DNA from: Prevotellaceae bacterium
GTDB taxonomy: Bacteria; Bacteroidota; Bacteroidia; Bacteroidales; UBA932
DNA length: 13,078 bases
Assembly (NCBI GenBank): GCA_031257455.1
Contig: JAIROQ010000216.1
Span: 1 to 13,078 of the forward strand
Reading direction: 5' to 3'
The translations under genes and the position numbers were made by a program. The first letter of the stretch is position 1, and every line of letters begins with the position of its first letter. A model generated the notes under the pieces. The model had not been told where the DNA came from. It made no database searches and worked only from the letters and a program-made list of their open reading frames with translations. Of this stretch, positions 473 through 13,078 are shown piece after piece.

Positions 473-3400
473 ATGTCACAATTTGTACACTTACATGTCC
501 ATACCCAATACTCTATTTTAGACGGGATGTCCACGATTGGGGGATTGTTCCGAAAAGCCCAAGAAGACGGTCAACAGGCGCTGGCCATTACCGACCACGG
601 GAATATGTTCGGCGTAAAGGAATTTTTGGATGTAGCGGAAAAAAAATTCAAGGAAATAAAGCCGATTGTCGGGTGTGAAGTGTATGTATCGCCCGAAGGT
701 CGCTTTATGCGGCGCGGCAAAGAAGACCAAAGCAGCAATCACCTTGTCCTGTTGGCCAAAAATAAAACCGGTTACTATAATTTGATAAAGCTGGTTTCCC
801 TTGCTTATATCGAAGGTTTTTATTACAAGCCGCGCATTGACCATGAACTGCTGGAACAGTATCACGAAGGATTGATTGCCTGTTCCGCCTGTCTGGCGGG
901 CGAAGTACCGCGTGCAATCCTGCACGGGAATTTGGAAGAAGCGGAAAAGACCATTGTGTGGTATAAAAATTTATTCGGCGAGGATTATTATCTCGAATTG
1001 CAACGCCACGAAACGCAAGACCCCCTGGCCGACCAGCAGGTCTATCCGATGCAAAAGGCCGTAGCGGAACATATCCGGGCATTCGCGGAAAAATACCGGA
1101 TTAAAATTATTGCCACCAATGACGTGCATTTTGAAAATGCCGAAGACGCCGAAGCGCATGACCGCTTGATTTGCTTGAATACCGGCGCCGACCTCAATGA
1201 CGCCAAACGCATGCGCTACACCAAACAGGAATGGATGAAAACACAGGCGGAAATGGCGCAACTTTTTTCCGACCTTCCCGAAGCGCTAAGCAATACATTG
1301 GAAATAGCGGAAAAGGTCGAACGTTACAGCATCAACAACCCGCCGATAATGCCGTATTTTCCGATACCCGAAAATTTCACGGACTCCAACGAATACCTGC
1401 AGCGCCTGACTTATGAAGGCGCAGCCAAACGCTATAAAGAAATCACGGAGGCCATAAAAGAGCGGATTGATTTTGAACTGGCGACAATAAAAAAAATGGG
1501 CTATCCCGATTACTTTTTGATTGTGCAGGATTTTATTGCCGCCGCGCGTGAAATGGATGTCTGGGTAGGTCCCGGACGCGGTTCGGCTGCCGGGTCGGTG
1601 GTGGCCTATTGTTTGCAGATTACCGATATTGACCCGTTGAAATATAATTTGCTGTTTGAGCGTTTCCTCAATCCCGACCGCATTTCGTTGCCCGATATTG
1701 ACATTGATTTCGATGATGACGGCCGCGCAAAAGTATTAAAATATGTGGAAGAGAAATACGGGAAAGACCATGTATCGCATGTCATCACTTTCGGCACGAT
1801 GGCGACCAAGTCGGCTATCCGCGATGTGGCGCGCGTGCAGAAACTGCCGTTGGATGTATCGGATAAACTGGCCAAATTGATACCCGTGCGCTGGGACAAA
1901 AAGGAAACAGTCGTTAAAAAAGATGAAGACGGCAACGAAGAAAAAGAAGAACAAACCTTGCCGATTAACTTGGAAAACTGTCTTACCCATATCCCCGAAC
2001 TTAAACAGGCAATGGAATCGGACGACCCGCTGCTGCAGGACACGTTCAAGTTTGCCAAACAGCTGGAAGGCTCTGTCCGCAATACCGGCGTGCATGCCTG
2101 CGCCATTATCATCGGGCGGAATAATTTAATGGAACACATCCCTATTTCTTCCGCCAAAGACAAGGATACCGGCGAAGACATGTGGGTATCGCAGTACGAA
2201 GGCTCGTGCATCGAAGAAGTAGGCATGTTGAAAATGGATTTCCTTGGGCTAAAAACCCTGTCCATTCTGCGCGGCGCTGTTGAAAACATAAAATCGACAC
2301 GCGGCATTGACATTGATTTGGCCGCCATTTCGCTGGATGATAAGAAAACCTATGAACTGTTCAGTCGCGGGAATACAGTGGCCACGTTCCAGTTTGAATC
2401 GGACGGCATGAGGAAATGGTTGCAGGAACTCGAACCCACGCGTTTTGAAGACCTGATAGCCATGAACGCGCTCTACCGTCCCGGCCCGATGAATTATATT
2501 CCCAACTTTGTCAAACGCAAACATGGCGGCGAAAAAATAGAATACGACCTGCCCGAAATGGAAGAATTTTTGAGCGACACATACGGCATCACCGTGTATC
2601 AGGAGCAGGTCATGCTGTTGTCGCAAAAACTGGCCGGATTTACCGGCGGGCAAGCCGACACCCTGCGCAAAGCCATGGGGAAAAAGCAAAAAAAGACGCT
2701 GGCAAAAATGAAAAACGATTTCATTGCCGGCGCCATACAAAACGGACACTCCGAAGCCATTTGCAATAAAATCTGGAGCGACTGGGAAGCGTTTGCCGAA
2801 TACGCTTTCAACAAATCGCATTCCACCTGTTACGCTTTGCTCGGATACCAGACCGCCTACCTGAAAGCCAACTATCCGGCGGAATACATGGCCGCCGTGC
2901 TTAGCTGCAACCTGGATAATATTGACGAAATCGCCAAACTGATGAACGAATGCCGGCGGATGGGCATTGCCGTATTGGGGCCGGCCATCAACGAAAGTAA
3001 CCGGCGCTTTGCCGTCAATAAAGCGGGAGATATCCGTTTCAGCATGGCTGCCATTAAAAACGTGGGAGCGGCCGCTATTGACGCCATCGTAAACGAACGG
3101 CAACGTCACGGGCCATTCAAAGACATATTTGATTTTGTGGAACGCATACCCTTGTCCACCGTAAACCGCCGGGCGATGGAAGCGCTGGTACTGGGCGGCG
3201 CGTTTGATGAATTTAAAGAAATCAAACGCTATCAATACCTGTCGCCCAATGCGCAAAAAGAAATTTTTCTGGAAAGCCTGCTGCGCTACGCCAACAAATG
3301 GCAGGCCGATAAACAACAAAACACGAATTCATTATTCGGCGGCAGTTATGACGTGGCCGTACAAAAACCGAAAATCCCCACAGACGTGGAAGAATGGATT

Positions 3401-4102
3401 GCCACCGAAACCCTGAAAAAAGAAAAAGAACTGGTAGGCATCTACCTCTCGGCGCACCCCTTGGACGTTCATTCTTTCGCGATACGGCATTTTACCAACC
3501 ATACCCTGCAAGAGATACCTGATTTATTAAACAAAGCGCTGAACGACAAAGACGGAATGCTGCAGCGGAAAACAATCCTGCTGGCCGGCCTTGTAACCAA
3601 AGCGGAAGAGGCGAAATCAAAAAAAACGGAAAAGCCTTATCTGCGTTTTACACTGGAAGACTATTCCGATTCTATGAATATGGCGCTATTCGGGATAGAT
3701 TACGACAATTTCTCCAAATCCATAAAAACGGAACAGGCATTATTACTGCGCTGCCAGATACAAAAATGTTTCCGGAAAAAGGATGACAAGCGACCCGAAG
3801 AATGGGAACTTAGAATACGCTCCGTCCATAATCTGGCACACGTGTGCGATGAACTGGTGCAGGCCATCCAGCTTGTCTTGCCGGTGGAAGAACTGTCCGC
3901 ATCCTTTACGAAACGGTTAATGGATGCGATTTCAAAAAACCGGGGAAATATAACGTTGCAACTGAAATTGACGGAACAAAAACACCGGTTGACACTGCCA
4001 TTATGGTCGCGTTCGCACCCGGTGGCGCTGACGCCGGATTTTATAGATTTTATACAGTCGGAAAATATAAATTATTCTTTAACTAAAAAAATTGGTTGTT
4101 GA
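473..4102 (+). CDS. dnaE: DNA polymerase III alpha subunit, replicative polymerase
   Basis: This is the chromosomal replicative DNA polymerase (C family, DnaE type), 1209 aa, close to the usual length. Domains in order: PHP (about 1-285), palm, thumb and fingers (about 290-900), helix-hairpin-helix region (about 850-910) and OB-fold (about 1030-1125). Palm catalytic aspartates are D408 and D410 in LPDIDIDF and D589 in MLKMDFLGL. The PHP domain appears to keep all nine metal ligands seen in proofreading bacterial DnaE enzymes: H8, H10, D17, H42, E69, H90, C140, D217 and H219. Intrinsic 3'-5' exonuclease activity is therefore plausible. A likely clamp-binding motif is TNSLFGG at 951-957. A charged Lys/Glu segment (477-494) looks like a lineage insertion. 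The ATG at 473 is preferred because MSQFVHLHVHT matches the family N-terminus and a -7 promoter lies just upstream. The stop codon sits inside the start of an octamer repeat array. Confidence 0.98.
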   Translation: MSQFVHLHVHTQYSILDGMSTIGGLFRKAQEDGQQALAITDHGNMFGVKEFLDVAEKKFKEIKPIVGCEVYVSPEGRFMRRGKEDQSSNHLVLLAKNKTGYYNLIKLVSLAYIEGFYYKPRIDHELLEQYHEGLIACSACLAGEVPRAILHGNLEEAEKTIVWYKNLFGEDYYLELQRHETQDPLADQQVYPMQKAVAEHIRAFAEKYRIKIIATNDVHFENAEDAEAHDRLICLNTGADLNDAKRMRYTKQEWMKTQAEMAQLFSDLPEALSNTLEIAEKVERYSINNPPIMPYFPIPENFTDSNEYLQRLTYEGAAKRYKEITEAIKERIDFELATIKKMGYPDYFLIVQDFIAAAREMDVWVGPGRGSAAGSVVAYCLQITDIDPLKYNLLFERFLNPDRISLPDIDIDFDDDGRAKVLKYVEEKYGKDHVSHVITFGTMATKSAIRDVARVQKLPLDVSDKLAKLIPVRWDKKETVVKKDEDGNEEKEEQTLPINLENCLTHIPELKQAMESDDPLLQDTFKFAKQLEGSVRNTGVHACAIIIGRNNLMEHIPISSAKDKDTGEDMWVSQYEGSCIEEVGMLKMDFLGLKTLSILRGAVENIKSTRGIDIDLAAISLDDKKTYELFSRGNTVATFQFESDGMRKWLQELEPTRFEDLIAMNALYRPGPMNYIPNFVKRKHGGEKIEYDLPEMEEFLSDTYGITVYQEQVMLLSQKLAGFTGGQADTLRKAMGKKQKKTLAKMKNDFIAGAIQNGHSEAICNKIWSDWEAFAEYAFNKSHSTCYALLGYQTAYLKANYPAEYMAAVLSCNLDNIDEIAKLMNECRRMGIAVLGPAINESNRRFAVNKAGDIRFSMAAIKNVGAAAIDAIVNERQRHGPFKDIFDFVERIPLSTVNRRAMEALVLGGAFDEFKEIKRYQYLSPNAQKEIFLESLLRYANKWQADKQQNTNSLFGGSYDVAVQKPKIPTDVEEWIATETLKKEKELVGIYLSAHPLDVHSFAIRHFTNHTLQEIPDLLNKALNDKDGMLQRKTILLAGLVTKAEEAKSKKTEKPYLRFTLEDYSDSMNMALFGIDYDNFSKSIKTEQALLLRCQIQKCFRKKDDKRPEEWELRIRSVHNLAHVCDELVQAIQLVLPVEELSASFTKRLMDAISKNRGNITLQLKLTEQKHRLTLPLWSRSHPVALTPDFIDFIQSENINYSLTKKIGC

Positions 4103-4265
4103 GTTGTTTAATTGTTGAGTTGTTTAATTGTTGAACTGTTGAATTGTTTATTTGTTTATTTGTGTATTAGCTGATGCCAACTATCATTCAACAGTTCAAC
4201 AGTTCAACAGTTCAACAGTTCAACAACTCAACAACTCAACAAATCAACAAATCAACAAATCAACC
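4098..4265. repeat. Inverted pair of 8-bp tandem arrays between dnaE and the transferase gene
   Basis: The left array (4098-4161) has eight 8-bp units of the form gttgagtt, gtttaatt, gttgaact and gtttattt. The right array (4187-4265) has almost ten units: ttcaacag four times, ttcaacaa, ctcaacaa twice, then atcaacaa twice and a truncated unit. The arrays are reverse complements of each other. The inner 16 bp (4129-4144 against 4186-4201) pair perfectly, and the outer units pair imperfectly to 4098 and 4232. The RNA could form a stem of up to about 47 bp around a 41-nt loop. It begins at the dnaE stop codon and ends one base before the next gene's ATG, so it may end or protect the dnaE message, or affect downstream translation. 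Confidence 0.85.
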
Positions 4266-4266
4266 T

Positions 4267-5337
4267 ATGAGTACTTTTTTCTATGCCTGTATTACCGCCT
4301 TGCTATGCAGTTTTTTATTAATGCCGTTACTGGCGCGGTTTCTGCGCCGCAGGCATATCCTTGACAAGGGCGGCCACCGGAGGGTTCACAAAGGATTTGT
4401 GCCGTCAATGGGGGGAGTTATCATTTGCCTGTCATTCCTGTTTGCGATGCTATTGTGGATACCCATCGACAGCATCAGCGAGCGCCGGTTTGAGCTGGCG
4501 GCTATTGCACTCATGTTTTTTACCGGCGTCCGCGATGACATGCAACCTTTGCGTCCGTTATATAAATTCTTTGTACAAATGATTGCGGCAATTATAGTAG
4601 TCGTTGCCGGCAATATGTATATCCATTCGTTCTACGGCCTGTTCGGCATATATGAAATACCGGAACTGTTGGGCTGTGCAATCAGCGTACTGTTCATTAT
4701 TTTTATCACCAATGCATTTAATTTAATTGACGGCCTTGACGGACTGGCAGCCGGCATGGCCATAGTGGCTTTTTCATTTCTCGGTTATTGGTTCTATGTG
4801 GCCGGCTACGAAATGGAAACCCTGCGCATGGCCTGTATCATCGGCGCACTTGTCGGATTCCTGTACTATAATTGGCAACCGGCCTCCATTTTCATGGGCG
4901 ACACCGGTTCGCTGGTTGTCGGGTTTATCCTCTCCACGAGCGCCCTCTCTTTCATCTCCGCAAACGGCAGTTTGCCGGACGATGTATCCTATAAATTCCC
5001 TGCGGTATTCAGTACCGGGATGACCATCGTATTATTGCCGCTTTTCGACACGACCCGCATATTCATCCTGCGAATAAAACAGGGGAAATCGCCCTTCCTT
5101 CCCGACAAGCAACACCTGCATCATGTGCTGCTGCACGTGATGCGCACGCATGCAAGAACCGTCCGCGTCATGTTGACAGGATATATCCTTTTTTCCGGAT
5201 GTGTTCTCATTGCCGGTAAATTCTGTAAGGACTGGGTAGTACTTACCGGGGGAATCGTTACGTGTATTCTCATCGATTTGCTACTGACGCGTAATATCGG
5301 CCGGCTGGTGCGGAAATCTTTAAGAGGCCGGAAGTAG
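4267..5337 (+). CDS. wecA: WecA/TagO-family undecaprenyl-phosphate hexosamine-1-phosphate transferase
   Basis: This multi-pass inner-membrane enzyme is predicted to move a HexNAc-1-phosphate (most likely GlcNAc-1-P) from its UDP form to undecaprenyl phosphate, the first step of a lipid-linked glycan. From the ATG at 4267 it has 356 aa, a usual length. Signature motifs are D90-D91 (VRDD), NAFNLIDGLDGL at 149-160 (D155, D158), MGDTGS near 210-215 and PLFDTTR around D261. HLHH at 283-286 is the WecA-type motif that separates this group from MraY. About ten hydrophobic segments are seen. An in-frame upstream ATG at 4174 would add 31 residues encoded by the octamer repeat (QQFNSSTV-type 8-residue units). 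I reject it because the N-terminal membrane helix begins right after M at 4267. The exact sugar and product glycan cannot be determined. No separate promoter was found, so it may be read through from dnaE. Confidence 0.93.
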   Translation: MSTFFYACITALLCSFLLMPLLARFLRRRHILDKGGHRRVHKGFVPSMGGVIICLSFLFAMLLWIPIDSISERRFELAAIALMFFTGVRDDMQPLRPLYKFFVQMIAAIIVVVAGNMYIHSFYGLFGIYEIPELLGCAISVLFIIFITNAFNLIDGLDGLAAGMAIVAFSFLGYWFYVAGYEMETLRMACIIGALVGFLYYNWQPASIFMGDTGSLVVGFILSTSALSFISANGSLPDDVSYKFPAVFSTGMTIVLLPLFDTTRIFILRIKQGKSPFLPDKQHLHHVLLHVMRTHARTVRVMLTGYILFSGCVLIAGKFCKDWVVLTGGIVTCILIDLLLTRNIGRLVRKSLRGRK

Positions 5338-5444
5338 GAGTTAAGAACTAAGAGTTAAGAGTTATGAGTTATGAGTTATGAGTGGCGGCAGGCGCACCGG
5401 CGTTAGCCAAATCCGTAAATCTGTAAATCCGTAAATCCGTAAAT
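5338..5444 (+). repeat. Composite intergenic repeat, copy B
   Basis: Six 7-bp units fill 5338-5379 (gagttaa, gaactaa, gagttaa, then gagttat three times). The core at 5384-5410 contains GGCGGCAGGCGC and ends GGCGTTAGCCAA. Four 8-bp units (ccgtaaat, one variant ctgtaaat) fill 5413-5444. It occupies the whole gap between the convergent transferase and galE genes. No ordinary stem plus T-run terminator is visible there, so the element itself may serve that role. Confidence 0.85.
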
Positions 5445-5448
5445 GGCT

Positions 5449-6477
5449 TCACGCTTTATGCCTCACGACTAATTCCCATTTCCATGCCGCGCGGAGGGTG
5501 TCTTCAATAGATTCCTGCGCGTGCCAGCCAAGAACGGTATGCGCTTTTTCGGGATTAGCCCAGACCTGTTCAATATCGCCGGCACGGCGGCCGACAATCT
5601 TATAAGGTAGTTTTATTCCCGTAGCTTTTTGAAAGGCGTCAATCAGTTCCAGTACCGACAATCCTTTGCCCGTGCCGATATTAAAGGTTTCCACAGCCGT
5701 TTTATTTTTCCCGTCCGCGAGGTAATTAACCGCCTGCACATGCGCACGCGCCAAATCCACTACGTTGATATAATCGCGGATGCAACTGCCGTCCGGCGTG
5801 TGGTAATCATTACCGAAAACGCTTAATTCCTGCCGGACGCCCGCCGCCGTCTGCGTGATGAAAGGCACTAAATTTTGCGGCACACCCACCGGCAATTCCC
5901 CTATCTCGGCAGACGGATGAGCGCCTATAGGATTGAAGTAACGCAACAAAACGCCCTGCAATGCAAAGGAAACAGCGGTATCGCGCAAAATCTCTTCACA
6001 AATCTGCTTCGTATTCCCGTAGGGCGACATGGCCGGCAGGACAGGAGCATCTTCCGTAACCGGCAACACGGCAGGCTGGCCGTAAACCGTGCACGATGAA
6101 GAAAACACTATATGGAAAACGCCATGCGCTATCATCTCTTCCACGACATTGAGCAGCGACAGGAGGTTATTCCGGTAATACAGCAGGGGCTTTTCCACAC
6201 TCTCGCCCACCGCCTTGGACGCTGCAAAATGAATGACCGCCGTAATGCCGGAATACTTATCAAAAATAGCCGCCATAGCGTTCCTGTCGCAACAGTCCGC
6301 CTGCTCAAAATGCGGACGAACGCCGGTAATGCGCGTAATGCCGTCCACCACCGCCGCTGTGGAATTTGATAAATTATCTACAATAACGGTTTCAAACCCC
6401 GCCTGCTGTAGCTCAACTACGGTATGCGAGCCAATGTAGCCCGTGCCGCCGGTAACAAGAATAATCGGTTGTAACAT
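5449..6477 (-). CDS. galE: UDP-glucose/UDP-N-acetylglucosamine 4-epimerase
   Basis: This is a cytoplasmic NAD-dependent extended short-chain dehydrogenase that inverts C4 of UDP-hexoses. From the ATG at 6477 it has 342 aa, near the 338 of the E. coli enzyme. The NAD-binding motif is TGGTGYIG at 9-16. The catalytic triad is S128, Y153 and K157 (SPYGNTK). RYFNPIGAHP (179-188) and NLVPF (202-206) are also typical. By motif alignment (GDIEQVWANP against E. coli GDLPAYWAD) the residue at the E. coli Tyr299 position is V305. A small residue there is associated with acceptance of UDP-GlcNAc and UDP-GalNAc, so it may be bifunctional. A longer frame starting at TTG 6495 is possible, but that TTG lies inside the TACCTTTG promoter element. 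The gene is convergent with the transferase gene and divergent from dnaB. Its last codons run into repeat-like sequence (cttcacgctttatgcctcac). Confidence 0.95.
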   Translation of the reverse strand: MLQPIILVTGGTGYIGSHTVVELQQAGFETVIVDNLSNSTAAVVDGITRITGVRPHFEQADCCDRNAMAAIFDKYSGITAVIHFAASKAVGESVEKPLLYYRNNLLSLLNVVEEMIAHGVFHIVFSSSCTVYGQPAVLPVTEDAPVLPAMSPYGNTKQICEEILRDTAVSFALQGVLLRYFNPIGAHPSAEIGELPVGVPQNLVPFITQTAAGVRQELSVFGNDYHTPDGSCIRDYINVVDLARAHVQAVNYLADGKNKTAVETFNIGTGKGLSVLELIDAFQKATGIKLPYKIVGRRAGDIEQVWANPEKAHTVLGWHAQESIEDTLRAAWKWELVVRHKA

Positions 6478-6492
6478 ATATTTTTTTTGAAA

Positions 6493-6500
6493 CAAAGGTA
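6493..6500 (-). promoter_or_regulatory. -7 element (TACCTTTG) of the galE promoter
   Basis: The minus strand reads TACCTTTG, an exact TAnnTTTG match, with a TTTG (complement of 6518-6521) 17 bp upstream as a possible -33 element. The expected start near 6486 leaves a leader of only about 9 nt before the ATG at 6477, so the message is nearly leaderless. This placement rules out the upstream TTG as the start codon. Confidence 0.65.
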
Positions 6501-6514
6501 GCGATTTTAAGACA

Positions 6515-6587
6515 ATTCAAAGATTTAAAGATTTAAAAATTTAAAAATTTAAAGGTTGAAATCTTTGAATTTTTAAATCTTTAAATC
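6515..6587. repeat. Long inverted repeat of 8-bp units between the galE and dnaB promoters
   Basis: gatttaaagatttaaaaatt (6522-6541) is the perfect reverse complement of 6568-6587, a 20-bp stem with a 26-nt loop. An alternative perfect 10-bp pairing joins attcaaagat (6515-6524) with atctttgaat (6561-6570). The arms are octamer arrays (agatttaa, aaatttaa). The element lies exactly between the two divergent promoters. It may insulate them or bind a protein. There is no T-run arrangement typical of a terminator. Confidence 0.85.
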
Positions 6588-6601
6588 ATGAAATTTTATA
6601 T

Positions 6602-6609
6602 TATCTTTG
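6602..6609 (+). promoter_or_regulatory. -7 element (TATCTTTG) of the dnaB-ispD promoter
   Basis: TATCTTTG matches TAnnTTTG and is followed by CATAGA, nearly the same context as the dnaE promoter. Transcription should start near 6616, giving a leader of about 24 nt to the ATG at 6640. It likely drives dnaB and ispD together. Confidence 0.7.
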
Positions 6610-6639
6610 CATAGAAATCCATTATTAACACAAAATTCT

Positions 6640-8154
6640 ATGGCAAAAACAACCAAACCGGCGCCCAAACTGCGTACTATTGATGCGATAGCATTGGAAG
6701 CGGGAAAAATGCCGCCCCATTCGCCCGACTTTGAAAAGTCGGTACTGGGCGCTTTGATGCTCGAAAAGGAAGCTATCGTTGAAATACAGGAACTGCTGAA
6801 ACCCGAGTCATTCCACAATGAATTGCATGCAAAAATATTCCGCGCTATTCAGGATATCAACCTGCGGCACGAGCCTGTCGACATGCTCACTGTTGCCGAA
6901 GAACTGAAAAAGAAAGGCGCACTGGACGAAATCGGGGGGCCTTACTATCTCTCGCAACTGACGATGACGGTGAACTCGGCGGCGCATGTGGAATACCATG
7001 CAAAACTGTTGGCGCAAAAATATATTCAACGGCAGTTGATCACCGCTTGCTCCAAAATAGTGGGGAAGGCCTTTGAAGAAGATGTTGTAGTGGATGAATT
7101 GCTGGACAGCGCACAACAGGAGATTTTTGACATCGCCGAAGGAAATATCCATCGGGAAACGGAGCATGTCGGGGCAGTGGTGGCACAAGCCATCAAAGAA
7201 CTGGAAGCAGCGCAGCTCCGGGATGACGGGTTGATCGGCATAGCGTCCGGCTATTCGGCGATTGACCGCATTACGCTGGGGTGGCAGCCGGCGGACATGG
7301 TTGTCGTAGCGGCGCGCCCTTCCATGGGGAAAACGGCTTTTGTGCTTACTATGGCGCGCAACATGAGTGTAGATCATAAAGTGCCTACTGCTTTTTTCTC
7401 GTTGGAAATGCCCTCCGTGCAGCTCGTAAAGCGGCTAATGATGAACGAATCGGGCCTTGATTCAAACAAAATACGCGGCGGTACAAAACTGTTGCCGCAT
7501 GAATGGACACAAATAGAAACAAGTGTCCGTAGCCTTGTAGAAGCCCCCCTGTTTATTGATGATACGCCGGCATTGTCGATTTTTGAGTTCCGCTCCAAAG
7601 CGCGCCGGCTGGTACTTTCGCACAATATAAAAATCATCATCGTTGACTACCTGCAATTGATGACCGGGCCGCCGGAGACGCAGAAAAGCATCAGGGAACA
7701 GGAGGTTTCCGCCATTTCGCGCGCCTTGAAAGCCATTGCCAAAGAACTAAACGTACCGATTATTGTGCTCTCGCAGTTGAACCGTTCGGTAGAAACGCGT
7801 GGCGGAAATAAACGCCCGCAATTAAGCGACCTTCGCGAATCCGGCGCTATTGAACAGGACGCCGACCTGGTACTGTTCATCCATCGTCCCGAATATTATG
7901 GTATCACAGAAGACGAGCAACATCAATCTACAAAAAATATGGCGGAAATTTTGATTGCCAAACATCGCAATGGCCAAACAGGGAATGTGAAATTAAAGTT
8001 TTCACAGGCAAAGTTTACGGAATGGGAAGAACCGGTCTGGGTGGAAGATGATACTGCCTCAACCAATGTAACAACTACCACCATGCCGTCAAAAATGAAT
8101 TATAATAAAGACTTTGATTTGGAGCCTCCACCCAGCAAACCGGCCTCATTCTAA
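6640..8154 (+). CDS. dnaB: Replicative DNA helicase DnaB
   Basis: This is the hexameric 5'-3' helicase of the replication fork, which loads at the origin and recruits primase. From ATG 6640 it has 504 aa, typical of Bacteroidota DnaB. The N-terminal primase-interacting domain spans about 25-130 (PPHSPDFEKSVLGALMLE onward). A linker follows, then the RecA-like ATPase domain from about 200. The Walker A motif is ARPSMGKTAF with K231 and T232. Walker B is IIIVDYLQL with D336. Motif H3 is IIVLSQLNRSVE (374-385). The subunit-contact motif KHRNGQTG (441-448) carries the probable arginine finger R443. The C-terminal 35 residues are low-complexity (Thr, Pro, Asn). A TTG start at 6607 would add 11 residues but overlaps the -7 element, so it is rejected. 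There is no intein. ispD follows after 12 bp. Confidence 0.98.
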   Translation: MAKTTKPAPKLRTIDAIALEAGKMPPHSPDFEKSVLGALMLEKEAIVEIQELLKPESFHNELHAKIFRAIQDINLRHEPVDMLTVAEELKKKGALDEIGGPYYLSQLTMTVNSAAHVEYHAKLLAQKYIQRQLITACSKIVGKAFEEDVVVDELLDSAQQEIFDIAEGNIHRETEHVGAVVAQAIKELEAAQLRDDGLIGIASGYSAIDRITLGWQPADMVVVAARPSMGKTAFVLTMARNMSVDHKVPTAFFSLEMPSVQLVKRLMMNESGLDSNKIRGGTKLLPHEWTQIETSVRSLVEAPLFIDDTPALSIFEFRSKARRLVLSHNIKIIIVDYLQLMTGPPETQKSIREQEVSAISRALKAIAKELNVPIIVLSQLNRSVETRGGNKRPQLSDLRESGAIEQDADLVLFIHRPEYYGITEDEQHQSTKNMAEILIAKHRNGQTGNVKLKFSQAKFTEWEEPVWVEDDTASTNVTTTTMPSKMNYNKDFDLEPPPSKPASF

Positions 8155-8166
8155 AAATAACGGGCA

Positions 8167-8832
8167 ATGAAACGTTCGGTAATTATAGTGGCCGGCGGTA
8201 ACGGGCGGCGTATGGGGATGCAAACACCCAAACAATTCCTGTTGCTTGCCGGCCTGCCTGTGCTGATGCATGCCATCCGCCGGTTTCATCATTTTGACCC
8301 TGCCATGCCGCTGGTAGTGGCATTGCCGCCGGCGCATATTCCCACGTGGGCGCAACTCTGCGCCGAACACCGCTTCACGGTCGCGCATACCGTAACGGCC
8401 GGCGGCGACACACGGTTTGACTCCGTGAAAAAAGCCCTCCAGGCCCTGCCCGAAACGGAATGGATAGCCGTACATGACGGCGTACGGCCATTGGTTTCGC
8501 CGGCGCTGATTGCCCGCTGCTTTGAAACGGCCGTGCAACATGGCGCAGCCGTGCCTGTTGTTCCCCTTTCCGATACTCTTCGTATGCTGGAAGCCGGCGG
8601 TAGCCGCGGTGTGCCGCGTGAAGATTACTGCATGGTACAAACCCCGCAAGTCTTCCGCGCCGGATGGCTGAAAAACGCTTACCGTACGCCCTTCCGTCCG
8701 GCATTCACCGATGACGCTTCCGTAGTGGAAGCCGCAGGATACCGCGTCTCCCTTGCCGAAGGCAGCCGCGAAAACATTAAAATCACCGAACCGGTGGACT
8801 TGAAAATAGCGGAACTTCTTATTAATTCTTAA
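8167..8832 (+). CDS. ispD: 2-C-methyl-D-erythritol 4-phosphate cytidylyltransferase
   Basis: This cytoplasmic enzyme of the MEP isoprenoid pathway joins CTP and methylerythritol 4-phosphate to form CDP-methylerythritol. It has 221 aa, a usual length. The N-terminal nucleotide-binding loop is VAGGNGRRMG (8-17), with PKQFL at 21-25. Other family signatures are GGDTRFDSV (79-87), VHDGVRPLV (102-110), TDDASVVE (181-188) and GSRENIKITEPVDL (199-212), which includes the conserved lysine at 205. It starts 12 bp after dnaB with no promoter between, so the two are probably co-transcribed. Its last 11 bases overlap the 3' end of dxs on the other strand. Confidence 0.96.
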   Translation: MKRSVIIVAGGNGRRMGMQTPKQFLLLAGLPVLMHAIRRFHHFDPAMPLVVALPPAHIPTWAQLCAEHRFTVAHTVTAGGDTRFDSVKKALQALPETEWIAVHDGVRPLVSPALIARCFETAVQHGAAVPVVPLSDTLRMLEAGGSRGVPREDYCMVQTPQVFRAGWLKNAYRTPFRPAFTDDASVVEAAGYRVSLAEGSRENIKITEPVDLKIAELLINS

Positions 8833-10690
8833 TCCCCAATTCACACTTGATGCGGCGGTAAATGCCGTCTGCATCGAAGCCGCATTGCGCCTGCAATTGC
8901 GCAATAGAACCATGTTCCACAAAATGGTCGGGAATACCCATCCTGATAATTTTGGCGGGATACCGGTGGGTCGTGAAAAATTCCGCTACCGCACCCCCGA
9001 GCCCGCCGTTCACCGTGCCGTTTTCAAGGGTAATGACGGTAGAAAATTTCTTGCCGGTTTCGTGTAATACCGCTTCATCTATGGGTTTCAGGAAGCGCAT
9101 GTCGTAATGTTGGACGGAAATATTTTCGCCAGCCAGCCGCGCTATTGCCGTGACCGCTTTATTTCCGATATCGCCGATGCTCAATAGCGCAAGGTCGTTG
9201 CCTTCGCACAGCCGGCGCGCCTTGCCGACAGGTATTGTTTCAAAAGGGCGTTTCCAGTCCAACCCCACGCCACGCCCGCGCGGATAGCGGATGACGGTGG
9301 TGCGCATACCGGGAAGTTGTGCGGTGTAAAGCATATTGCGCAATTCCACTTCATTCATCGGCGCAAAAATAACGAGGTTCGGAATACAGCGGAAATACGC
9401 CAAATCGTAAGCGCCATGATGCGTAGCGCCGTCTTCGCCGACCAGTCCGCCACGGTCCAAGCAGAAAACCACCTGCAGATTTTGCAACGCCACATCATGT
9501 ATCACCTGGTCATAGGCGCGCTGCATGAATGACGAGTAGATATTGCAATAGGGCAACATGCCGGCAACAGCCAGTCCGGACGAGAAAGTTACGGCATGTT
9601 GTTCGGCAATGCCTACGTCAAATGCGCGGTGGGGCATTTTTTCCATCATCAGGTTGAGCGAGCAGCCGGTGGGCATGGCCGGCGTAATGCCGACTATTTT
9701 CGGGTTCTGTTCGGCGAGTTCTATCAGGGTTTGTCCGAATACGTCCTGATAGCGCGCCGGGCCGCCGGACGGGAGGCGTTCGCCGGTTTCTTTGTCATAC
9801 ATGCCGGGCGCATGCCACAGTATCTGGTTTTCTTCGGCCGGTTTATATCCTTTGCCTTTGGTCGTGATAATATGCAACACCTTCGGCCCCTCGATATTTT
9901 TCAAGGCTTGCAGGGTTTTTGTAAGCTGCCGGATGTCGTGCCCGTCCACCGGACCGAAGTAACGGAAACCTAAAGCCTCAAAAAGGTTGCTGTTACGTAA
10001 AACCGCGATTTTTGTAGTGCTCACAAACTTTTGCACCATCCGGCGGATAATATTATTGCCGAAAAAATTCCACACTTTTGCTTTGAACTGGTTGTAGCGT
10101 ACAGACGTGGTCAGCTTCAACAGGTAGTTATGCACAGCGCCGACATTTTTGTCGATAGACATATTATTATCGTTCACCACCACTAAAATATTGGCTTTGG
10201 ATACGCCGGCATTGTTCAATCCTTCAAAAGCCAGGCCGCCGCCGAGAGCGCCGTCTCCAATTACGGCAATGGCCTGCCGGCGGATGCCCTGCATTTTCGC
10301 AGCCGTAGCAATGCCCAATGCCGCCGACACGGACACCGATGAATGGCCGCCGCCAAAAGCGTCATATTCGCTTTCGCTGATTTTGGGGAAGCCGCTGATG
10401 CCGCCATACGAGCGGTTGGTGGCGAAAACGTCCCGGCGGCCGGTGAGTATCTTATGTGCATAAGCCTGATGCCCCACATCCCAAATCAATTTGTCCTCCG
10501 GCGTGTTGAACACATAGTGCAACGCCACCGTGAGTTCTATCACTCCCAAGCTGGCGCCCAAATGTCCCGGATTTTTCGAACACTGGTAAATGATAAATTC
10601 GCGCAATTCTTCCGACAACTGCGACAATGCTTCCGGCGTCAGTTTCCGCAAGTCGGACGGGCTGTTGATAGTGGCTAATAAGGAAAACAT
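8822..10690 (-). CDS. dxs: 1-deoxy-D-xylulose-5-phosphate synthase
   Basis: This thiamine diphosphate enzyme condenses pyruvate and glyceraldehyde 3-phosphate, the entry and usual control step of the MEP pathway. It has 622 aa, matching the family. Visible motifs are DVGHQAYAHKILTGR (71-85, H74), GGHSSVSVSAALG (114-126) and the cofactor motif GDGALGGGLAFEGLNNAG (145-162) with NDNN at 173-176. FDVGIAEQHAVTFSSGLA (357-374) carries catalytic E363, and GATHHGAYDLAYFR spans 421-434. The C-terminal transketolase-like domain runs to the end. The ATG at 10690 is supported by a -7 element just upstream. It converges on ispD with an 11-bp overlap, so two MEP genes lie tail to tail. Confidence 0.97.
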   Translation of the reverse strand: MFSLLATINSPSDLRKLTPEALSQLSEELREFIIYQCSKNPGHLGASLGVIELTVALHYVFNTPEDKLIWDVGHQAYAHKILTGRRDVFATNRSYGGISGFPKISESEYDAFGGGHSSVSVSAALGIATAAKMQGIRRQAIAVIGDGALGGGLAFEGLNNAGVSKANILVVVNDNNMSIDKNVGAVHNYLLKLTTSVRYNQFKAKVWNFFGNNIIRRMVQKFVSTTKIAVLRNSNLFEALGFRYFGPVDGHDIRQLTKTLQALKNIEGPKVLHIITTKGKGYKPAEENQILWHAPGMYDKETGERLPSGGPARYQDVFGQTLIELAEQNPKIVGITPAMPTGCSLNLMMEKMPHRAFDVGIAEQHAVTFSSGLAVAGMLPYCNIYSSFMQRAYDQVIHDVALQNLQVVFCLDRGGLVGEDGATHHGAYDLAYFRCIPNLVIFAPMNEVELRNMLYTAQLPGMRTTVIRYPRGRGVGLDWKRPFETIPVGKARRLCEGNDLALLSIGDIGNKAVTAIARLAGENISVQHYDMRFLKPIDEAVLHETGKKFSTVITLENGTVNGGLGGAVAEFFTTHRYPAKIIRMGIPDHFVEHGSIAQLQAQCGFDADGIYRRIKCELGIKN

Positions 10691-10720: not shown

Positions 10721-10780
10721 TAATTTTGTATATAAATGCATAATTTTGTATCTAAGGGCATAATTTTCGTACCCAAGTGT
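10721..10780. repeat. Three tandem 20-bp repeats between divergent promoters
   Basis: Units are at 10721-10740 (taattttgtatataaatgca), 10741-10760 (taattttgtatctaagggca) and 10761-10780 (taattttcgtacccaagtgt). The period is exactly 20 bp with no gap, and the taatttt start is kept in all three. The array fills the space between the dxs promoter and the promoter at 10780-10808, the position expected of an operator array. The spacing puts successive units on nearly the same face of the helix. Confidence 0.8.
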
Positions 10781-10808
10781 TGTATTTTAAATATTTTTTT
10801 TACCTTTG
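10780..10808 (+). promoter_or_regulatory. Complete Bacteroidota promoter (TTG, 18 bp, TACCTTTG) for the RNA candidate
   Basis: TTG at 10780-10782 and TACCTTTG at 10801-10808 are separated by 18 bp, close to the 19-bp phylum spacing. This is the best -33/-7 match in the window. No coding frame starts nearby downstream. The first ATG of a credible gene is about 630 bp away. The promoter most likely serves an untranslated RNA. Confidence 0.7.
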
Positions 10809-10814
10809 CATACC

Positions 10815-11072
10815 ATTTCACGTTCTTTAAAACATTTTGATTGCTTTTATTCAGTTTCTGAAATCTAGTAAATTTCACTTTATCTATTTTGAATAAAAGC
10901 AAAAACTCCACGTGAGGGAAACGTGAATTTTTGCTTTATAATAGATAGGTATACTAGAACCTCAGAAACTTTAGGCACAGTTCACGTTTCGGAGTTTTAT
11001 CTAAACCCAATCGCTCTGCAAAGAGAAATCCCAAAACAAGACTGACTGAATAAAAGTAGTGCAAAACTACAA
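10815..11072 (+). ncRNA. Candidate structured non-coding RNA, about 250 nt
   Basis: The region follows a strong promoter, has no credible coding frame and is rich in complementary segments. A long arm is formed by nested helices: 10853-10861 with 10962-10970 (9 bp), 10864-10870 with 10952-10958 (7 bp), 10881-10888 with 10940-10947 (8 bp), 10896-10905 with 10928-10937 (10 bp) and 10909-10913 with 10921-10925. An asymmetric bubble lies at 10871-10880/10948-10951. An outer closing helix joins 10844-10855 with 11045-11056 (12 bp perfect, sharing 3 nt with the arm). A small hairpin CTCT-GCAA-AGAG is at 11014-11025. Competing pairings exist: 10843-10852 with 10891-10900 (10 bp) and 10919-10927 with 10981-10989 (9 bp). 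The leader holds a boxA-like GTTCTTTAAAACA (10822-10834). A long arm with a central bubble resembles 6S RNA or the Bacteroidales-1 RNA class, but I cannot confirm either. Ends are estimates. Confidence 0.6.
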
Positions 11073-11087
11073 AGATTATGATTTTTT
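11056..11087 (+). terminator. Possible weak terminator of the RNA candidate
   Basis: GTAGT (11056-11060) pairs with ACTAC (11066-11070) around a GCAAA loop. A run of six T follows at 11082-11087, which is 11 nt beyond the stem. That distance is too long for a classical intrinsic terminator, so the 3' end is uncertain. Confidence 0.3.
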
Positions 11088-11123: not shown

Positions 11124-11142
11124 CATAGTTAGTGCGGAAGGA

Positions 11143-11201
11143 GGGATTGTTTTGGAATGAAGTGTTTGTTTGGGGATAGATTATAAGTGCAAAACAATCC
11201 C
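11143..11201. repeat. Perfect 12-bp inverted repeat
   Basis: GGGATTGTTTTG (11143-11154) and CAAAACAATCCC (11190-11201) are exact reverse complements 35 bp apart. No T-run follows and no frame is present in the loop. The role is unknown. It could be a stem in a longer transcript or a protein-binding site. Confidence 0.75.
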
Positions 11202-11221
11202 GAAACCGCGAATAGAGCTAG

Positions 11222-11438: not shown

Positions 11439-13078
11439 ATGAAAAAACAAACAATCATTGCAGCAAAATGGCGCATAGCCGCTATTTGTTTCTTTCTCCT
11501 TTGGGCATTAAGTGGCTTTGCCCAACAGGCGAGTATTACCAACCTCGCGACCGATTATACCGCGAAAAAAATTTCGTTCACTGTCAAGTGGACGGCAGCA
11601 CCGCACGACAACAAAATCTGGGTGATTACCGACTACGTTAAGATAGAAGGCGCCACCACAGTAGGCCCCTGGTCACGCGCCCTTGTTACGAACGTGTCTG
11701 CTTCCACCGGCACTGCCACCATCTATTCTAATGGGCGCGGTTTTTTGCTGACTACTTCCGGCGTCAACGGCAGTGCGAACATTACGGCTACGTTAATCAG
11801 CAGTATGCCCGCCCGGTTCAGCTGGTGCGCCTTTGCATTGAATTACCCGCCCCGTGCAGTCCTTAACGCTTCCGGCTGGTATGATTTAAAAGGCACGAAG
11901 CCGTTTGTCGTGAATGAAACGCCATTAGGCAACGATGTGAACACCTATACGGGTGGTTGCATCACTTCCCTCACCGATGCAACCAACAACCCCCATGCTA
12001 TTATTCCCGGACCGCCAACAATTACGGCAGTTAATTCCCCGACTATTTGTTATAACACGGCCGCCAACCTGACGGCTACCGTAGCCGGTGATATAACCGC
12101 CGCCATGACTTATACATGGAATATTGGCGGAACAATTACCACGACTACCGTACCTGCCAAAACAACCGGCAACTTGACAACCAATACTACCTATACCGTT
12201 ACGGCAAAAAACGCTGCCGGCTGCACAAGCGCCGTATCCAATACAGGAACGATTACCGTACTCGAAGCGTTCTCTCCCGGCGAGATTGCGGCCACCGGGG
12301 AAACCATTTGCTATGCGGATACGCCCGGTATGATAGACAATATTACGGCAGCTTCCGGCGGTGATGGCCACATTACCTACCAATGGAGGTACGCCACCTC
12401 CAGGCCTTTTTCCGGCGCCACGGCCAGCTCTTATGCGCCGGATGCAGCAACTATCCAGTTATATTCTGACACAGGCAACACGTTCACCATTACCCGTTGG
12501 GCAAAAGACGGCACATGTAATACGACCCCTATGCAGAGTACAGGGACGTGGATACTGACCGTTCACGGTGCACTTAATTCCGGCATGATTGTGTCCACCG
12601 GGCAAACCATTTGCTCTGGGGATACGCCCGACGTAATAGGCAATCAGATATCCGCTACCGGCAGCGATGGCAACATTACCTACCAATGGCGGCACAACGG
12701 CGAGACTATTCCCGGCGCCACGGCCACCTCTTATACGCCGGCTGCGTCCTACAGCCAGACAGCCGGCACCCATACCTTTACCCGTTGGGCAAAAGACGAC
12801 GGATGCAATACGACCCCTGTGCAAAGTACAGGGGAGTGGGTACTGACCGTTAACACCGGCCTTGATCCCGGCTCGATTACGACCAGCGGGGAAACCGTTT
12901 GCTATGGGAATACGCCCACCAAGTCAATAAGCAATACTCCAGCTACCGGCGGCGGCAACATTACCTACGAATGGCGGCACAATGGCGTGGCTATTCCCGG
13001 CGCAACCCTCGCCTCTTATACGCCGGCTGCGTCCTACAGCCAGACAGCCGGCGCCCATACCTTTACCCGTTGGGCAAA
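11439..13078 (+). CDS. Partial secreted protein with tandem Ig/PKD-like repeats
   Basis: An ATG at 11439 opens a frame that runs without a stop to the right edge, 546 complete codons. It begins with a signal peptide: basic MKKQ, a hydrophobic core (ICFFLLWAL) and a likely signal peptidase I site after A28 (SGFA before QQ). Residues about 29-195 form a unique Thr/Ser/Asn-rich beta-type region. Residues about 196-277 look like one PKD- or Ig-like domain (TYTWNIGG, TYTVTAKNAAGC). From residue 278 there are tandem repeats of 96-101 aa, with conserved PGSI or similar, TICYGDTP, ITYQWR, SYTPAA, TFTRWAKD, CNTTP and WVLTV. Each complete repeat carries two cysteines. Such proteins are common in Bacteroidota, are often large and usually carry a C-terminal secretion domain, which would lie outside the window. 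No enzyme motif is seen. An adhesion or structural role is inference. The ATG is chosen because the signal peptide starts there. Confidence 0.85.
   Translation, partial: MKKQTIIAAKWRIAAICFFLLWALSGFAQQASITNLATDYTAKKISFTVKWTAAPHDNKIWVITDYVKIEGATTVGPWSRALVTNVSASTGTATIYSNGRGFLLTTSGVNGSANITATLISSMPARFSWCAFALNYPPRAVLNASGWYDLKGTKPFVVNETPLGNDVNTYTGGCITSLTDATNNPHAIIPGPPTITAVNSPTICYNTAANLTATVAGDITAAMTYTWNIGGTITTTTVPAKTTGNLTTNTTYTVTAKNAAGCTSAVSNTGTITVLEAFSPGEIAATGETICYADTPGMIDNITAASGGDGHITYQWRYATSRPFSGATASSYAPDAATIQLYSDTGNTFTITRWAKDGTCNTTPMQSTGTWILTVHGALNSGMIVSTGQTICSGDTPDVIGNQISATGSDGNITYQWRHNGETIPGATATSYTPAASYSQTAGTHTFTRWAKDDGCNTTPVQSTGEWVLTVNTGLDPGSITTSGETVCYGNTPTKSISNTPATGGGNITYEWRHNGVAIPGATLASYTPAASYSQTAGAHTFTRWA
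12270..13078 (+). repeat. Tandem coding repeats inside the secreted protein
   Basis: Repeat 1 is 12270-12572 (101 codons), repeat 2 is 12573-12860 (96 codons) and repeat 3 starts at 12861 and is cut by the edge. The segment 13012-13078 of repeat 3 matches 12727-12793 of repeat 2 at 66 of 67 bases, while the first halves differ more. This points to recent duplication or gene conversion. Repeat 1 is the most divergent and has extra residues after SYAPDA. Confidence 0.85.

Follow-up and report, generated by a model that had tools for sequence, protein, structure and literature searches.

The stretch analysed here, called the window, comprises 13,078 bases and is the entire contig JAIROQ010000216.1 of a Prevotellaceae bacterium (assembly GCA_031257455.1, 225 contigs), the home genome in the following. 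Towards its 3' end lie a promoter-like site, a segment which appears to be a structured leader RNA, and an open reading frame (ORF) for an exported-looking protein (Table 1). The segment resembles the 5' part of a messenger RNA, one able to adopt two mutually exclusive folds. An earlier note had placed at 10815-11072 a candidate RNA that may change its fold, behind a TTG-18-TACCTTTG promoter and devoid of a coding frame. The promoter is present in the sequence and is presumably of the Bacteroidota type; it is retained, with changes, across the 39 copies aligned below. No ORF of at least 80 amino acids overlaps 10815-11072, and the proposed limits fall near those of a repeated element: full copies found by DNA search match the query 10780-11057, promoter included. 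A coding explanation was rejected, as there is no ORF of 80 amino acids and the length changes in the variable stems ignore the reading frame.

The folding energy of the segment is far below that of shuffled sequence. For 10815-11085 it reached -65.7 kcal/mol against -43.4 +- 4.5 in 200 dinucleotide shuffles (z -5.0, no shuffle as good), and the minimal element 10815-11059 folded at -57.6 kcal/mol. All four competing pairings listed in the earlier note exist, two of them being longer than was noted (10841-10852 with 10891-10902, 12 bp; 10918-10927 with 10981-10990, 10 bp) and two as given (10844-10855 with 11045-11056, 12 bp; 10896-10905 with 10928-10937, 10 bp). When the halves were folded separately the competing helices formed, at -18.6 kcal/mol in 10815-10915 and -23.0 kcal/mol in 10916-11000.

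The alignment consisted of 39 near-complete copies, 4 partial ones out of 43 having been excluded. The stretches GAAAUCU, GAAACGUG, AGAACCUC and CACGUU hardly change among them and the internal loops are conserved, while other stretches are hypervariable, their complementarity being retained inside every copy. Exchange of strands between copies abolished the pairing of P2, P3 and P4, since for each helix none of 10000 permutations matched the observed total; the compensating changes for which the earlier note proposed a test in related loci are present. Misalignment of the hypervariable stem led RNAalifold to a mixed fold when it was applied to the plain alignments. The structure was set by hand, guided by column pairing, and the fixed-column count therefore leans toward the chosen structure. 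With this structure 88.2% of the cells were paired (76.4% in shuffles), changes on both sides were found in 160 cells (63.5 in shuffles), and the covariation score was 0.324 against 0.120 in shuffles and at most 0.087 with slid partners. P4 was paired in only 59.2% of the cells of this count because its register differs among copies, a problem which the strand-exchange test avoids. On this comparative evidence the arm is a genuine RNA structure.

Table 1. Features of the element and its surroundings in the window
Feature	Position	Strand	Partner or detail	Basis
Promoter-like site	10780..10808	+	TTG 10780-10782, 18 nt, TACCTTTG 10801-10808	sequence
Structured leader RNA, minimal element	10815..11059	+	transcript ends inferred	shuffle z -5.0; 39-copy alignment; match to covariance model R1
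Strand Z (1), TTGCTTTTATTC	10841..10852	+	Y (10891-10902) or 3' end (11048-11056, helix P1)	
P2 5' strand	10854..10861	+	10962-10969	own 333.5 vs permuted 160.2 +- 8.5
P3 5' strand, TCTAGTA	10864..10870	+	10952-10958	own 231 vs permuted 151.4 +- 8.7; 98.9% of cells paired
P4 5' strand, hypervariable among copies	10881..10888	+	10940-10947	own 337.5 vs permuted 185.1 +- 8.0, 0/10000
Strand Y (2) and P5 5' strand	10891..10905	+	P5: 10896-10905 with 10928-10937	93.5% of cells paired; both-side changes in 1/8 pairs
Strand A of hairpin P6, CACG	10909..10912	+	CGTG 10922-10925	one-sided changes only in fixed-column count; A:B permutation z 11.7, 78 distant copies
Strand B (3), GAAACGTGAA	10918..10927	+	A in P6, or C (10981-10990)	
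Strand C (4), TTCACGTTTC	10981..10990	+	T-run after C in most distant copies	
Small hairpin CTCT-GCAA-AGAG	11014..11025	+		present in aligned copies; absent from the three tandem copies of L033
P1 3' strand, GAATAAAAG	11048..11056	+	12 bp with 10844-10855 when extended to 11045	sequence
3' hairpin, GGGATTGTTTT / AAAACAATCCC	11143..11201	+	11143-11153 with 11191-11201	fold of 11138-11206, -21.1 kcal/mol
Downstream gene, exported-looking paralogue MKKQTIIAAKW...	11439..13078	+	open at contig end (13078)	ORF; Ig_7 above Pfam cut-off

The element is widespread. A DNA search of 59 relatives returned many copies, mostly 71-82% identical to the window, in the home genome and four others of its genus. 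A covariance model, R1, was built on the core of the element; it matches the window at 10853-11000 with 133 bits, the window being one of the model's 39 sequences. R1 gave 49 matches in the home genome, 130, 66, 63 and 13 in four relatives of the genus, and one in each of the remaining four genus genomes, that in G004 being weak (E 0.0023). At larger scale it was matched in 87/149 genomes of the family (E 0.01), 69/295 of the order (E 0.001) and 28/395 of a phylum sample (E 0.0001), 26 of the latter belonging to other orders of the same class; each count includes the home genome and is taken as a lower bound, because few candidates per genome were scored and the filters were stricter. A pattern scan of named genomes yielded 77 stretches, of which 24 were 'Prevotellaceae bacterium' contigs outside the model test; the other 53 were tested and all matched R1. 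They came from Alistipes, Rikenella, Prevotella, Paludibacteraceae, Duncaniella, Culturomica, two Fibrobacter bins and one Chryseobacterium bin, bin labels being fallible. In genomes G000, G001, G002, G005 and G007 many contigs stop shortly behind an RNA copy. The assembly is therefore probably broken there by downstream genes that are repeated, and the copy numbers are probably too low. At L033:11-841 (-) three copies stand in tandem about 300 nt apart with no gene between them, units 1 and 2 ending in ATGAAAAAAATTAT, which doubles as the start of the following promoter.

In distant copies the switch strands are likewise retained. The pairing of B with C reached a permutation z of 13.6 (86 distant copies); since single-linkage clustering placed 76 of the 86 in one group, the test was rerun with 6, 12 and 20 groups. 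Within B:C there were 50 G.U against 2 A.C oppositions (21.9 against 12.7 when permuted). The mutually exclusive helices are conserved and covary, as would be expected of an attenuator. Strand C is followed by a T-run of at least 5 in 74 of the 86 copies, well over control windows; a looser tract definition (113/117 copies) was dropped in favour of this one, being satisfied also by 49.7/86 shuffles and 81/234 control windows. By eye, the T-run seems to close a compact hairpin in some copies from rumen Prevotella. A further pairing, of C with a strand D, extends beyond the T-run and by eye lies near the start codon, on its upstream side. The motif TAnnTTTG occurs within 160 nt upstream in 70/85 distant copies (8.8 in shuffles) and, as a feature outside the covariance model, supports the distant matches; within 160 nt behind the tract a promoter motif was found in only 6 of the 85. 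The full layout of an attenuator, with a terminator-like stem and U-run behind a promoter and before a gene, was found in distant copies and not in the window's subfamily.

In the home genome the element is closely coupled to one gene family. Of its 50 loci (49 R1 matches and one partial copy), 36 are followed by 600 nt or more of sequence; in 29 of these the same exported-looking family is encoded within 2.5 kb behind the RNA. Conversely, 30 of the 52 family matches have a same-strand RNA match within 1.3 kb upstream, and 17 have less than 600 nt to the upstream contig end. The product of 11439..13078 tops the 52, being itself a row of the family model. Seven family proteins were scanned: Ig_7 exceeded the Pfam cut-off in three, Fib_succ_major fell below it in one, and several homologues carry Fib_succ_major in precomputed annotation. 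The earlier note had proposed to collect homologous loci downstream of divergent dxs promoters; the element stands before genes in tens of copies and is not tied to dxs. Among the distant copies 65/86 have an ORF (at least 60 amino acids or open-ended) starting 15-180 nt behind the tract, at a short spacing with a median of about 60 nt. Such ORFs are exported-looking in 39/65 cases against 47/205 control ORFs (p 8.5e-8), export being judged from a simple rule on hydrophobicity and not with a signal-peptide predictor. The stricter proposal of exported proteins only was rejected, as 39/65 is an enrichment and not exclusive.

Several loci deserve separate mention. L025, L026, L024, L060 and several other home loci encode, behind the RNA, small peptides that look exported (MKTIFFFFAM...PEPPVYYTGNDEPA... 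and the like); at L025 and L026 these precede the larger family gene, and at L024 and L028 ORFs resembling transposase pieces by eye replace the family gene. The distant copies L070, L081 and L097 precede small ORFs that by eye resemble helix-turn-helix proteins and begin alike; these may represent a regulator gene that recurs as a regulated target. The ORFs behind L255, L259 and L261, other families of the class, we take by eye to resemble SusC/TonB receptors.

The structural features and the distant copies suggest that the element is, more likely than not, an attenuator-type class of leader RNA that is new, unlisted in Rfam and unusual in its copy number. We propose, at a probability of roughly 40%, that this undescribed switch RNA of Bacteroidia gives envelope and surface proteins a common point of control: in several species of one Bacteroidales genus it would have been amplified to about 50-130 copies in each genome, in the home genome almost all testable members of the surface-protein repertoire would carry one, and one cellular signal could switch, or stochastic folding diversify, the whole repertoire. 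Four-strand transcription attenuators of the trp/his type rely on 1:2, 2:3 and 3:4 pairing, with a translated leader peptide over strand 1. The element has the same strand order, the U-run after 3:4 and exclusive helices; it differs by a long covarying arm inside the switch and by a copy number that in some genomes runs into the tens, and no leader peptide was noticed, nor a conserved frame by an unscored inspection by eye. The structured RNA candidates and candidate orphan riboswitches described in Weinberg 2010 (PMC2864571) likewise combine a conserved leader with internal loops that are conserved and with what may be an expression platform, whereas the present element is not in Rfam 15, reaches 130 copies per genome and shows an enrichment of exported-looking proteins instead of one metabolic pathway.

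A number of observations weigh against the attenuator reading. Taken whole, the arm has a lower mean folding energy than its two halves summed (-65.3 against -49.2 kcal/mol), so fold 2 would have to be kinetic or stabilised; the 5' half alone had a mean z of -1.5, with 25/85 below -2. Strand D lies after the T-run and so cannot compete during termination, and C:D showed no clear G.U excess (16 G.U and 9 A.C; permuted 8.9 and 11.6, with permuted G.U up to 17). The window's own subfamily has only 3-4 T after C in 39/39 copies. The 3' strand of the putative helix P1 is nearly invariant in the 39 copies. Changes on both sides occurred in 17/33 pairs where shuffles averaged 14.8, 18 of 500 being as high. 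The upstream TAnnTTTG stands at varied distances from P2, mostly 50-120 nt. As to the genes, no family protein turned up downstream of the RNA in 7/36 home loci, 5/35 testable family genes have at least 600 nt upstream without an RNA match (at a looser threshold one of the five gained a weak match, E 0.042, cut by a contig end), and 21/86 distant copies have no ORF start within 180 nt. Regarding the change of fold, the exclusive helices of the earlier note stood the comparison; the change itself was not observed.

If the attenuator proposal is true, an RNA switch present throughout many Bacteroidota, among them Alistipes, Prevotella and Paludibacteraceae, would be missing from Rfam despite preceding many genes for exported-looking proteins. 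It would provide a handle on the control of surface display in these bacteria, and the ligand or protein reading the P3 loops would be a question testable in cultivable relatives. To our knowledge, one RNA class at up to 130 copies per genome would rank among the most repeated leader RNAs. Besides the window, loci were compared with Rfam in 28 scans, some of the loci twice: no family matched 10815-11072 even at E 10, none was found in 12 distant loci at gathering score, and at E 5 nothing fell on the element in 16 loci, with chance microRNA, snoRNA and sraA matches elsewhere in them. A new RNA, one of the options raised in the earlier note, is hence the one that survives. Literature searches, covering titles and abstract openings, returned no description of the element; one of the 3161 candidates of PMC8040213 could, however, correspond to a part of it.

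Two other explanations keep some weight, both being rather improbable in our estimate. The element could be a free small RNA ending at the U-run and acting in trans, the gene behind it being a neighbour and not a target. Its own promoter motif and T-run would fit, as would the distant copies lacking a near ORF and the tandem copies of L033 without genes between them; moreover, FopS of Bacteroides is reportedly a family of multicopy paralogous small RNAs. The likeness to FopS would lie in the occurrence of multiple paralogous copies in Bacteroidales; the present element is linked to genes in the manner of a leader. The short spacing to the ORF, the rarity of a promoter motif behind the tract, the close pairing of the RNA with one gene family in the home genome and the C:D pairing that runs past the T-run argue against a free RNA. 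Alternatively, A:B, B:C and C:D may govern access to the start region in a leader acting on translation or messenger stability, the U-run being no terminator. The position of C:D behind the T-run and just upstream of the start codon speaks for this, and the window's subfamily keeps B and C with its 3-4 T; however, the frequency of long T-runs in distant copies, far over control windows, and the compact hairpins that some rumen Prevotella copies seem to have speak against it.

A DNA-level element, such as a recombination or mobile site or a cruciform, which carries a promoter and spreads before surface genes, is very unlikely. Tens of dispersed copies, tandem copies, contig breaks behind copies and the diverse downstream genes of distant genomes could be so explained, but the G.U excess in B:C favours an RNA made from one strand, the orientation is fixed with the promoter motif mostly upstream, many genomes hold single copies, and the identity of the genus copies speaks against recent insertion. 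6S RNA, 6S-Flavo and Bacteroidales-1 form a long imperfect hairpin as the element does; 6S RNA is encoded by one or two free-standing genes which are not gene leaders, whereas the element has 49 to 130 copies in four genus genomes, in front of genes. Two of the three were described from Bacteroidota (PMC2864571). The suggestion in the earlier note of 6S RNA or Bacteroidales-1 of this lineage, to which the long rod-like fold lent some credit, is scarcely tenable and is refuted within the reach of the Rfam models, given the multicopy leader position, linked to downstream genes, and the lack of matches to 6S (RF00013, RF01685) at E <= 10 in the window, to 6S-Flavo over the cut-off in 9 genus genomes (a single weak one, E 7.6e-4, lay elsewhere in G002) and to Bacteroidales-1 (RF01693) in the window and in 0/9 genus genomes (1/14 control genomes, Bacteroides ihuae).

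The remaining features of the window concern its flanks. Beside the element, 473-10690 holds ORFs which we take, by their family look, to be DNA polymerase III alpha, a glycosyl-phosphate transferase, GalE, DnaB, IspD and Dxs; the frames taken as the last two overlap convergently at 8822-8832. At 4095-4260 there is a long inverted repeat of TTGAATTG type with chance microRNA matches in Rfam on both strands. The 3' hairpin behind the element has a counterpart in 15/36 home loci by a simple pattern, and a chance-level SNORD70 match (E 7.5) fell on it in the Rfam scan. Near distant copies a group II intron domain was matched at L105:1968-2097 (-), and DUF805-type RNAs at L115:521-555 (-) (DUF805b, at the cut-off) and L072:1376-1436 (-) (DUF805, below it).
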